This document shows positions 57,299 through 61,077 of a stretch of 64,000 nt of DNA, one piece after another. The stretch is from positions 68,015 to 132,014 of the forward strand of contig NZ_JAJIRQ010000006.1 in NCBI RefSeq assembly GCF_025717605.1. Direction: 5' to 3'. Made by a program: the position numbers and the translations under genes. The notes under the pieces are model-generated. The model made no database searches and had not been told where the DNA came from. It saw only the letters and a list, made by a program, of their open reading frames with translations. How positions within the stretch are numbered: the stretch's first letter is position 1; the number at the start of each line of letters is the position of its first letter. The stretch is from Paucibacter sp. TC2R-5. GTDB taxonomy: Bacteria; Pseudomonadota; Gammaproteobacteria; Burkholderiales; Burkholderiaceae_C.

Positions 57299-57513
57299 GC
57301 GCTTACTGGCGGTGGATGTTGGGGCGGCGGGCGGCTGCCACGTGCCTTGAGCTGCTGCCCATCACGCCAGATCAATCGTCGCTGAAGGGCTGTAAGCCGA
57401 ACTTGCATGCCGCCAAAGTAAACACCAAAGGTCGTCCTGCGATGGACGCCAATGAGCGAGAACTCGTGGCAAAAAAGCGGCCTTCAAATTCACATCTCTT
57501 ACGACAAAAAGGC
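57299..57513. other. Intergenic region at the left edge of the PEP-CTERM segment
   Basis: These 215 bp between cdsA and the small membrane-protein gene show no coding signal. Base composition drops towards the right (about 57440 onward is visibly richer in A and T), which may mark the left boundary of an acquired segment. No inverted or direct terminal repeat matching 61767-61952 was found here by eye. Confidence 0.4.
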
Positions 57514-57810
57514 TTACTTGGCCTTGATCGTGATGCCCTGTCTCTGCAACTCTGCCACCATGCGCTGGGCATTGGCGTTGCCTTGTGTGGCAAGTGCCTG
57601 GGTAGCGTTGACCAGTGCATCCCCTTGTTCGCGCAACTTGGCAGCCTTTTCCAGTGTTGGGGCCAGTGCCGCAGACTGTGCGTTGAGCTGGTTGCGTTCG
57701 GCCACCAGTTGCACTGCCTGAAAGCCTAGCCAGCCCACCAGCGCCACGCCCATCAAGAGCACGGGCACAAAGGGGCTGCGGGTGTCATTGCTGTTCATAT
57801 TGGCGCTCAT
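57514..57810 (-). CDS. Small membrane protein with coiled coil, second partner of the PEP-CTERM operon (98 aa)
   Basis: One membrane segment (FVPVLLMGVALVGWLGFQAV, about residues 14-34) is followed by a helical periplasmic part (LVAERNQLNAQSAALAPTLE, then KAAKLREQGDALVNATQALA) and ends QRQGITIKAK. It overlaps the previous gene by 4 bp (ATGA), so the two are translationally coupled. An internal ATG at 57798 is a possible alternative start. The function is not recognised; its layout resembles its upstream partner, suggesting a hetero-oligomeric membrane pair. Confidence 0.75.
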   Translation of the reverse strand: MSANMNSNDTRSPFVPVLLMGVALVGWLGFQAVQLVAERNQLNAQSAALAPTLEKAAKLREQGDALVNATQALATQGNANAQRMVAELQRQGITIKAK

Positions 57811-58106
57811 GGTTTCTCAACGGCAGCAGCCGTTGCCGGTGCTGGGTTGGGCGTGACTTTCAGGCCCAAGCTGCCCAGCATGTCAATCAGCGCACGGTCA
57901 TTGTCTTTGAGGGCCAACTGCGCAAGCGAGGTGGCGATGTTGGTGTAGATGCCTTCCAACTGGCCGGTTTGCTGCAAGTAGCCCTGTTTTTGGGCCAGCT
58001 CGGCCTGCGCTGTTTGGTTGGTGCTCAGGAGCACACCATTGAGCAGGGCCAGCACCACGGCAAGCGCTGCCAGTAGGGTGGTCAGGATGTATTGCGCTTT
58101 AGTCAT
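57807..58106 (-). CDS. Small membrane protein, first partner of the PEP-CTERM operon (99 aa)
   Basis: An N-terminal membrane segment (YILTTLLAALAVVLALLNGV, about residues 5-26) is followed by a Gln-rich helical stretch (LSTNQTAQAELAQKQGYLQQ), NDRALIDMLGSLGLKVTPNP and a Pro/Ala tail. ATG 58106 lies 7 bp after the stop of the PEP-CTERM gene; a TTG two codons upstream is the other option. It is coupled to the next gene by ATGA. I do not recognise a family; I predict an inner-membrane anchor facing the periplasm. Confidence 0.75.
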   Translation of the reverse strand: MTKAQYILTTLLAALAVVLALLNGVLLSTNQTAQAELAQKQGYLQQTGQLEGIYTNIATSLAQLALKDNDRALIDMLGSLGLKVTPNPAPATAAAVEKP

Positions 58107-58113
58107 GGGCAAA

Positions 58114-61077
58114 TTACACGCTTACTGCGCTGCGGCGACGGCGGACCATGGCGCCCATCAACGCCAAACCTGCCAGCAGCATGGCATAGGTTTCTGGCTC
58201 GGGCACGGCAGACGTAATCGCCACACGCACCGTGCCATCGGTGCTCAGGTGCGAGAAGTCCAGCTTGCTTTTGTCATAGCCCGTCACAAAGATGCTGGAG
58301 TAGCCGTCTTCTGCAGTGCCAAACGAGCCGCTGAAACTGTTAAAGCCAAACAGTGCAAAGCTAGTGCCCTGCGCAGGCACATAGCTGCTGTCAAAGGCAA
58401 GGTTCAGCTTGCCATTGAAGGTGAGCGTGTTGATGCTAATCAGCTGGTCGTACTGGGTGCCAGGTGTGGCGCCAAAAAACTCCATGTTCAGCACCGATGT
58501 GCTGTCAAACGTGGCATTCCCGCCGCTAAAGCTGAACGCTGCCGGGCTGTTGCCGGGGTTGAAGGCGGCTTTGAAGGCAAAGTTGCCCGCAAAACTGCCA
58601 GCACCATTCACATCGTTCATGAAACTCAGGGTGCCTGCGCTGCCCGCCACAGTGCCGTTGTTGGTGAAGTTGCCCTGCACGCTGCTGTCGCCACTGAAGG
58701 CAACGGTGCTGTTGTTGACCGTGCCGCCCACCGTGCTGATTTGACCGCCCTGACCCAAGTTGACCGTGCCGTTTTGTGTCAAGGTGTCTGCGCTGAGCAC
58801 GCCACCATTCAGATTCAGGGTATGTCCCGCGCCAAGGCTCAGGTTCTTGGCTACGTTCAATGCCTGGGTGCTATTCAGCGTGGTGGTGCTGGCCAGCAAA
58901 CCGGTACCCAAGGCTGCGTCGCCTCGGTAGCCCAACGTGCCGCTGGCCCAGTTGAAACTGCCAGCAGACGTTTCACCGCCACTGGTTTGTAGCGTGCCGC
59001 CGCTGAGTGCAATGGTGCCCGCAGCAAGGGTTCCACCATGGGTATCCAAGGTATTGCCCGTGCCAATGTTGAGAATTTTGGCAACATTCAAAGCTTTACC
59101 GGACGCGAGTGTGGTCGTGCTGGCCAGCAAACCAGCGCCCACGCTGGCATTGCCGGTATAGCCCAGCGTTCCCTGGTTCCAGTTGAAGTTGCCGCCATCC
59201 AAAGAGCCGCTAGCAATTTGCAGCGCACCGCCACTCAGAGCCAAGGTGTTACCACTACCCACACTGAGATTTTGGGCTACGTTCAATGTCTTGCCGGAGC
59301 CGAGTGTCGTGTTTTTAGCCAACAGGCCCGCAGCACTTAAGGCTGCATCGCCGGTGTAACTCAGTGTTCCCTTGCTCCACGTAAAGGTACCGCCGCTATC
59401 CACCGCGCCAGTTTTGACTTGCAGTGTGCCTCCATCCAGGGTAAGGGTTGAAGCATTGACAACGCTGAATTTCGCTCCTACAGCGAGTGTCTGCCCGGCG
59501 CCCAGTGTGGTGGTTTTGCTCAATAAGGCGCTATTCAGAACAGCGTCCCCAGTGAAGCTCAGCGTGCCAGCCGTCCAAACGAGTCTGGACAGAGGTACGA
59601 GTGTTACGCCGGCGTTGTTATTGGGCAGTTCCAAGGTGCCGCCAGCCAGATTGACTGTGCCTTTGGCACCGATGTTCAGCGATGACGCTGTCACTTTGCC
59701 AGAATCCTGAATGTTCAGGGTGCCGGTGCCATTCAACCCAACAGTTAAGGTAGAAGAGCTATTCCACTGCGAACCAGCGCCCTTAACTGTGAGGGTGCCG
59801 GTGGAGTTTGTGGCGTTTCCGACAATGCCTTTTTGGGCACTCACCACACCACCTTCTTCGATGTTCAGAGTGCCGGTGGTAGTAAAGGCGCCACCTATGA
59901 TGATCTGGTTGGAAAGGTTCCACTGGGAATCCGCACCGATGACGTTGACCACGCCGATACCCGCAGAGCCATTCTGGCCGACAATGCTGTTGACACTATT
60001 CACAACGCCACCAGTTGTGATGTTCAGAGTGCCCTTACTGGAAGCAACAGTACCAAGGTTTAGATACCCAGTAGTGTCCCAACGCGACCCGGCGCCAGAC
60101 ACGTTAACTGTGCCTTGGCCAATACTAGTTTGCCCGGTACTGCCAGTCACCCACCCACCGTTTTCAATGTTCAGGACGGCACCTGTGTTTTTGACGCTTG
60201 CGCCAACGGTGAGGTTCCCGGTGTTGGTCCACTTGGAGCCTGAACCGGTCACATTGATGGTGCCATTGCCGCCGGTTAAGCTGCCGCCGGGCGAGCCGCC
60301 TAATGCGGCGCCATTGGTGGTCACGGAACCGCCATTTTCGATGTTCAGTGTGCCAGTGCCCCCATTACCAATCGTCAGGAAACCTGCGTTTGTCCACTGC
60401 GAGCCCGCGCCAGTGACCTTGACCGTGCCGGTGCCGTCTTTGGATTCACCGACTCTGCCATAGAAGTTACTCACCACACCGCCGTTTTCGATGTTGAGCG
60501 TACCGGCTCCGCTCCTACCGACGGTCAGGTCAGCCGCGTTGGACCACTGCGAGCCCGCGCCGGTGACAGTTGCTTTGCCATTGCTGCCTGAGTAATAACC
60601 AATATCGCCGCCTGCACTCGATACATACCCTGCATTTTCGATGTTCAGGGTACCGGTGCCGGCCTCTCCAACGTTCAGTGCGTCTGAGTTGACCCACCGT
60701 GAAGCCGGGCCACCACCAGTGGCCTTGCCAGTCACGTTCACGGTGCCAATGCTGCCCAAAAGGCGGCCGATCATTCCGCGGCGGTTACTCACAGCCCCAC
60801 CGCTTTCGATATTCAAGATGCCGATGCCGCTGTTGCCAATGGTGAGATCGAAGGTGTTTGTCATCTTCGTGCCGGCGCCAAGCACGTTGTAAGTCTCGGT
60901 GTCCCCCGCTAAGTTCCCCACAAGAACACTATCAAAAGTGTTTTTCACTTCGGTGCCCGTTGCCACCGTGGTGGTTTTGTCGGCAGCGAAGCCAGGTGCA
61001 AATGCCACCAGCAGGCTCAGGGCCAAAGTGCTTTTTGCGGGCAAACGAAGGCGGCTAAGGCCCAAAGGCTTTGTCAT
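58114..61077 (-). CDS. PEP-CTERM surface protein with T5SS/PEP-CTERM-associated repeats (987 aa)
   Basis: A signal peptide (ending LLVAFAPGFAAD, about residue 33) is followed by about eight 45-55-residue repeats (residues 40-470) of the form TVxVTGAGSQW...LTVG..GTGTLNIENGGxV, the repeat type shared by autotransporters and PEP-CTERM proteins. A second block (about 490-760) has four longer repeats with TTTL..G..LNVA..L..G and GGTLQ. The C-terminus is VPEPETYAMLLAGLALMG plus RRRR, a PEP-CTERM sorting signal for exosortase. It is probably an exported matrix or surface protein anchored or released by exosortase, none of which is encoded here. An AAGGA site precedes ATG 61077. Confidence 0.9.
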   Translation of the reverse strand: MTKPLGLSRLRLPAKSTLALSLLVAFAPGFAADKTTTVATGTEVKNTFDSVLVGNLAGDTETYNVLGAGTKMTNTFDLTIGNSGIGILNIESGGAVSNRRGMIGRLLGSIGTVNVTGKATGGGPASRWVNSDALNVGEAGTGTLNIENAGYVSSAGGDIGYYSGSNGKATVTGAGSQWSNAADLTVGRSGAGTLNIENGGVVSNFYGRVGESKDGTGTVKVTGAGSQWTNAGFLTIGNGGTGTLNIENGGSVTTNGAALGGSPGGSLTGGNGTINVTGSGSKWTNTGNLTVGASVKNTGAVLNIENGGWVTGSTGQTSIGQGTVNVSGAGSRWDTTGYLNLGTVASSKGTLNITTGGVVNSVNSIVGQNGSAGIGVVNVIGADSQWNLSNQIIIGGAFTTTGTLNIEEGGVVSAQKGIVGNATNSTGTLTVKGAGSQWNSSSTLTVGLNGTGTLNIQDSGKVTASSLNIGAKGTVNLAGGTLELPNNNAGVTLVPLSRLVWTAGTLSFTGDAVLNSALLSKTTTLGAGQTLAVGAKFSVVNASTLTLDGGTLQVKTGAVDSGGTFTWSKGTLSYTGDAALSAAGLLAKNTTLGSGKTLNVAQNLSVGSGNTLALSGGALQIASGSLDGGNFNWNQGTLGYTGNASVGAGLLASTTTLASGKALNVAKILNIGTGNTLDTHGGTLAAGTIALSGGTLQTSGGETSAGSFNWASGTLGYRGDAALGTGLLASTTTLNSTQALNVAKNLSLGAGHTLNLNGGVLSADTLTQNGTVNLGQGGQISTVGGTVNNSTVAFSGDSSVQGNFTNNGTVAGSAGTLSFMNDVNGAGSFAGNFAFKAAFNPGNSPAAFSFSGGNATFDSTSVLNMEFFGATPGTQYDQLISINTLTFNGKLNLAFDSSYVPAQGTSFALFGFNSFSGSFGTAEDGYSSIFVTGYDKSKLDFSHLSTDGTVRVAITSAVPEPETYAMLLAGLALMGAMVRRRRSAVSV

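Follow-up and report, generated by a model that had tools for sequence, protein, structure and literature searches.

In a 64,000-nucleotide stretch of the genome of Paucibacter sp. TC2R-5 (contig NZ_JAJIRQ010000006.1, positions 68,015 to 132,014; hereafter, the window), a gene for a large PEP-CTERM surface protein is followed by two genes, here called S1 and S2, which encode small membrane proteins. Sequence comparison indicates that S1 and S2 form a conserved pair that carries no name in the libraries searched; the surrounding sorting system is known, and the pair appears to be its new part. It is quite possible, if short of probable, that S1 and S2 are a heteromeric inner-membrane stalk pair that would tether giant CTERM surface proteins or hand them over.

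The three-gene unit and its homologues

All three genes lie on the minus strand. The first (58114..61077) encodes an exported T5SS/PEP-CTERM-repeat protein of 987 residues, in which an N-terminal signal peptide was read by eye and eight stretches matched the repeat model TIGR04393 (267.7 bits, cut-off 23). Its PEP-CTERM sorting signal (PF07589, 32.3 bits, cut-off 20.7) occupies residues 957-981 (58135..58209, minus strand; G000:C42:126149-126223 in the numbering of the contig). S1 (57807..58106, 99 residues) follows after 7 bp and overlaps S2 (57514..57810, 98 residues) by the 4 bp of an ATGA. A single main hydrophobic segment is present in each of the two small proteins. The frames, coordinates, gap, overlap and lengths given in the initial annotation were all reproduced, and its description of the large product as a repeat protein with a C-terminal PEP-CTERM signal was borne out by the two models, both of which were matched above their curated cut-offs.

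Homologues were detected in 15 genomes, and S1 preceded S2 in every one of the 15 loci, with identities to the window proteins of 27-67% for S1 and 34-76% for S2. Because the ordered pair recurs in this manner, the predicted frames of S1 and S2 are real genes. A query with a single S1 sequence (P0001) detected the protein in at least seven of 299 genomes of the family, including the window genome, and a scan of contigs with strict peptide patterns (128 candidate stretches) yielded at least one relative, on a contig of Rhodoferax bucti; both counts are lower bounds. When a profile of S2 was used, eight strong matches were obtained among 300 genomes of the order, namely, the window genome and seven new ones. 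Among 299 genomes of the phylum, the same profile recovered the window genome and one weak match (G739, E 4.3e-4), which was discarded from the count and is surrounded by genes that look ATP-synthase-like by eye. In these two scans, at most the best 13 candidates per genome were scored. Three further matches to the S2 profile, from one genus (G312, G535 and G564, E 2.7e-4 to 6.8e-4), were proteins of 477-479 residues with a membrane helix and a coiled coil and were likewise discarded. The family of G326 was represented by one genome. The pair is patchily spread and was found within one order; in the window's own genus, S1 was present in one of 18 genomes.

A PEP-CTERM gene lies immediately upstream of the pair, on the same strand, in 10 of the 15 loci (window, L002, L009-L014, L032 and L033), at distances of -4 to 107 bp. 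These ten loci span nine genera plus Rhodoferax bucti. In four of them (window, L013, L032 and L033), a model match confirmed the sorting tail; in the other six (L002, L009-L012 and L014), the tail was recognized by eye in the aligned sequences, including that of L014, whose upstream protein matched no PEP-CTERM model at E 0.001. The large frame runs past the contig end in L002, L010, L011, L012 and L032.

Passenger proteins and exosortases

One pair family is encoded behind two types of passenger, as we call the large upstream protein. The partners in L033, L013, L014 and L032 carry choice-of-anchor-D repeats and do not match TIGR04393. The C-terminal 260 residues that could be aligned in eight choice-of-anchor-D-type partners define a region, A3, and the window and R. 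bucti proteins have another C-terminal domain, common to both. Distances among S1 sequences paralleled those among S2 sequences (Mantel r 0.88, p 1e-4, 15 loci). The correlation with the passenger C-terminal region, available for eight loci, was r 0.37 (p 0.03) for S1 and r 0.53 (p 0.02) for S2.

An exosortase was detected in 14 of the 15 pair genomes. The exosortase of the window genome matched PF09721 (E 5.5e-66) and the exosortase B model (339.7 bits, cut-off 275). The background was 162 of 299 genomes in the family and 120 of 300 in the order (115 above cut-off). In the family sample, all seven pair genomes and 155 of the 292 others had an exosortase (p 0.017); in the order sample, these figures were seven of eight and 113 of 292 (p 0.008), with the window genome included in both samples and kinship uncorrected in both statistics. 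The family scans for exosortases and for A3 scored at most the best eight candidates per genome. Typing covered nine of the 14 genomes, with one exosortase each. Type B was assigned in the window genome, R. bucti and G275, and type A in G094, G142, G205 and G499. The best matches in G357 and G400, both fragments, were to the VPLPA type (XrtD) and scored approximately 300 bits, where the cut-off for the full length is 400. The pair occurs together with predicted exosortases of types A, B and D-like.

The exosortase B gene of the window genome stands with a B-type EpsI gene on the window's contig (G000:C42:4449-5932, L154), in what we take, by eye, to be an exopolysaccharide-like locus. In G563, which belongs to the genus of G357, we observed giant A3-like, choice-of-anchor-D-like proteins with a VPLPA-like tail. 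VPLPA-type giant proteins occupy 1-7309 of L114 (G563:C135) and 2-190 of L116 (C37), and on C135 the end of one giant protein precedes the start of another, with no small pair between them. No pair follows the two readable C-termini of G563 (L114 and L116), and the other frames stop at contig edges.

Proposed role of the pair

According to PMC12188702, the pathway that takes PEP-CTERM proteins across the outer membrane is undefined. The S1-S2 pair offers a concrete candidate for one of the steps of this route, across passenger architectures and exosortase types. In the mechanism that we propose, each protein would extend its inner-membrane helix as a long periplasmic stalk, which would lead through a conserved turn into a short helix and then a tail that starts with a G[IVL]-type motif. 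Together they would keep the large beta-rich CTERM passenger assembly-competent at the inner membrane, and their tails may hold its beta edges near that membrane until cleavage, by analogy with FtsB. Exosortase would then remove the C-terminal anchor, and the passenger would exit by the still undefined outer-membrane route. In most of the genomes found, the pair is encoded immediately after its passenger, and in the others it may act in trans; the arrangement in G563 fits action in trans and is not proof of it. We infer that the stalks are periplasmic, that S1 and S2 form a heteromer, that they touch the passenger and at which stage they act. A more specific form of the proposal, that S1 and S2 are dedicated inner-membrane parts of the route of giant CTERM proteins from exosortase to the surface, as a heteromeric stalk whose tails would pair with beta-solenoid or immunoglobulin-like edges and release them on cleavage by an exosortase of any type, is in our estimate unlikely.

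The conserved gene order, the frequent upstream PEP-CTERM gene, the correlated distances, the exosortase frequencies and the variety of passenger and exosortase types speak for this proposal. The AlphaFold2 models of the two proteins, of low to moderate confidence, have the same layout and contain no strand, with helices at residues 3-67 and 71-79 of S1 and at residues 14-75 and 79-90 of S2 (mean predicted local distance difference test score, pLDDT, 74). The hhalign score between the S1 and S2 profiles cut to the window residues (21.5) exceeded those of all 200 segment-wise shuffles (mean 11.4, standard deviation 2.4, maximum 19.8). With moderate confidence, we regard S1 and S2 as sister proteins; in each, a single membrane helix would continue as a long stalk and pass through a turn into a short helix. 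The N-in orientation is more likely, because four S2 members have N-terminal tails of 28-86 residues when read from their called starts. The pair is clearly, if not strictly, tied to genes for predicted giant CTERM proteins. A3 exceeded 90 bits in eight of 299 family genomes, comprising six that contributed to the profile, G269 and G090 (the contig of G090 ends approximately 90 bases past the A3 match). Outside the pair genomes, A3 was found in two of 292, and this rarity of A3 without the pair is informative.

Several results weigh against the proposal. The S1 model is poor (mean pLDDT 61), a Foldseek search with the S2 model found no PDB match, and the charges flanking the membrane helix favor neither orientation. 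The relationship between S1 and S2 is weak by hhalign (E 2e-4, probability 47%), and after the profiles were cut to the window residues, E was 0.0029 and the probability 11%, with a reversed-profile control that reached 17.1. The A3 region was not found at E <= 0.001 in G357, G400 and G505, and in G464 its tail part alone was detected. In G269, a helicase-like gene comes after the gene for an A3-type PEP-CTERM protein, and no pair was detected with the single S1 sequence (P0001) or with the motif, which was sought within the contig's first 12 kb. Six family genomes have both A3 and the pair, and they are uninformative because the A3 profile was built from their passengers, which had been selected for their position before the pair; the Fisher test of A3 against the pair (2e-10) was set aside as support on the same ground, being largely circular. 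Further, 70 PEP-CTERM matches (E <= 0.1) were counted in the window genome, against one S1 and one S2, and the pair is therefore not generally needed for PEP-CTERM proteins. Three other PEP-CTERM proteins of that genome (937, 943 and 1473 residues), none of which matched TIGR04393, have no pair alongside.

Five of the 15 pair loci also lack an adjacent PEP-CTERM gene. In four of them, from one genus (L027, L029, L030 and L031), a ppiC-like gene precedes the pair by 92-233 bp on the same strand, and a purL-like gene is close by. The fifth (L028) is in G464, where a response-regulator-like gene adjoins the pair close to the end of a contig and where no exosortase was detected in the 370-contig assembly, given as 97% complete. 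Because of the four ppiC-side loci and G464 without an exosortase, the link between the pair and PEP-CTERM proteins is not strict. The names ppiC, purL, helicase, LuxR and exopolysaccharide used in this text are our presumptions, assigned by eye where no model is cited. The ppiC-like periplasmic isomerase gene that precedes the pair in one genus may reflect a chance insertion or a functional link.

These loci, together with the patchy spread of the pair, are what one would expect if S1 and S2 had a general envelope role, for example as a periplasmic scaffold or spacer without a link to PEP-CTERM export, in which case shared regulation or transfer would explain their position. We consider this alternative rather unlikely. 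The four ppiC-side loci share one location and may therefore represent one event, and G464 still has nine of its 11 PEP-CTERM matches above cut-off, with an exosortase present in G555 of the same genus. Across the loci as a whole, such a role would leave the directly upstream PEP-CTERM gene in 10 of 15 and the exosortase in 14 of the 15 genomes as the facts to be accounted for.

The initial annotation had suggested that the pair assists the export, sorting or anchoring of this one surface protein. A predicted role of that kind is plausible, and its restriction to one protein is too narrow, given two passenger types, the four ppiC-side genomes and G464. Co-occurrence had been expected downstream of PEP-CTERM genes and only in genomes with an exosortase; the former was mostly observed and the latter nearly so, and exclusivity failed in G464. 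The pattern that had been named as contrary, homologues mostly in loci without PEP-CTERM genes or in genomes lacking an exosortase, was looked for and was not what we found.

Comparison with known families and systems

Neither window protein matched a Pfam or NCBIfam model above cut-off. Over eight members of each family, E-values went no lower than 0.0061 (S1) and 3.6e-4 (S2), and the matches were spread among unrelated models; in these scans, cut-offs were available for the first member alone. The best S2 match was to the ATP synthase b model (20.8 bits, cut-off 211) and is taken as an effect of the helix. No exosortase-associated NCBIfam model matched S1 or S2, at E 1 for the window proteins and E 0.1 for eight members of each. 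Searches of PDB sequences gave six matches for S1, by name designed repeat proteins or fusions, in which no stretch passed alone, and one for S2 (E 0.74). No small membrane pair beside PEP-CTERM genes was mentioned in the titles and abstract openings covered, a body of literature that mostly excludes subscription journals.

The closest known system is that of PEP-CTERM proteins and exosortases (EpsH/Xrt), with which the unit shares the PEP-CTERM signal of its passenger, as well as an exosortase B and a B-type EpsI in the window genome. S1 and S2 differ from this system in that they match none of the exosortase-associated models within the limits applied and adjoin the passenger gene instead of the exosortase gene. 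The CrtB-associated protein (TIGR04533) is also an uncharacterized partner of CTERM machinery, and PMC12188702 suggests that it may act in the undefined outer-membrane step. However, its gene is located downstream of that of cyanoexosortase B and not of a passenger, and neither S1 nor S2 gave a match to TIGR04533 within the limits applied.

In their predicted architecture, S1 and S2 resemble FtsB and FtsL, small proteins in which one membrane helix is joined to a stalk, a short helix and a tail, and the modeled helices fit this layout. The sheet of FtsQ is extended by FtsB through a helix, a loop and a strand (PMC6134095). Unlike FtsB and FtsL, S1 and S2 are patchily distributed and encoded beside surface proteins. 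The FtsL model TIGR02209 matched one of eight S2 members (E 0.0021), the window S2 not being among the matches, and neither the window S1 nor any of eight S1 members matched FtsB or FtsL models. Our best reading, by analogy, is that S1 and S2 would work like FtsB and FtsL without belonging to their families. Judged by one defining feature of each, they also fall outside the GspL/GspM and spanin families, and this lack of membership does not count against an FtsB/FtsL-like mode of working.

A membrane helix with a periplasmic stalk is likewise found in GspL and GspM, and S1 and S2 could be stalk adaptors of this kind, linking the passenger to type II secretion. GspL_C matched two of eight S1 members (best E 0.0076) and two of eight S2 members (best E 0.0095), the window S1 matched GspM (E 0.03), and PepA, a PEP-CTERM protein, is probably secreted via type II secretion (PMC9850573). 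Where cut-offs were available, however, the matches were far below them (window S2 against GspL_C, 15.9 bits, cut-off 29.6; window S1 against GspM, 14 bits, cut-off 60), and a membrane helix plus a stalk may explain them. Further, no other type II secretion gene was recognized by eye near the pairs, a genome-wide search not having been made, and we regard this alternative as quite unlikely.

A role as a membrane sensor, through which the pair would tune passenger expression to export capacity, is improbable. Related LuxR-type regulators diverge from the passenger genes in L013 and L033, and a response regulator is beside the pair in L028; at the window unit, however, no LuxR-type regulator was recognized, and neither S1 nor S2 has a signaling or DNA-binding domain above cut-off. 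A phage-type lysis or toxin unit that travels with the passenger gene is hardly credible: the small membrane genes overlap and S2 members gave weak matches to LysB (one member, E 0.016) and alpha-xenorhabdolysin subunit A (three of eight, best E 7.2e-4), but long helices alone can give such matches, the absence of cysteine from all 15 S2 and 14 of 15 S1 proteins leaves no counterpart of the lipobox-cysteine outer-membrane lipoprotein of a spanin pair, S2 had no match at E 1e-5 in 72,556 plasmid records, and no phage gene was seen by eye in the neighborhoods (phage records were not searched).

Some minor features concern transcription. A terminator-like hairpin (57509..57525, minus strand, pattern match only) spans the S2 stop codon and may mark the end of the unit; it is weak evidence because 11 such sites were found on both strands, compared with a mean of 5.7 in shuffled sequence. 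The LuxR-type regulator genes that diverge from the passenger gene lie at 8205-9314 in L013 and 1278-2363 in L033, and their products are 27% identical over 323 residues; the L028 response regulator resembles them over approximately 60 residues alone. Five upstream regions were scanned for sigma-54-like sites; the window region was negative, and the one site found, in L033, is located approximately 72 bp before the passenger start at position 2602.

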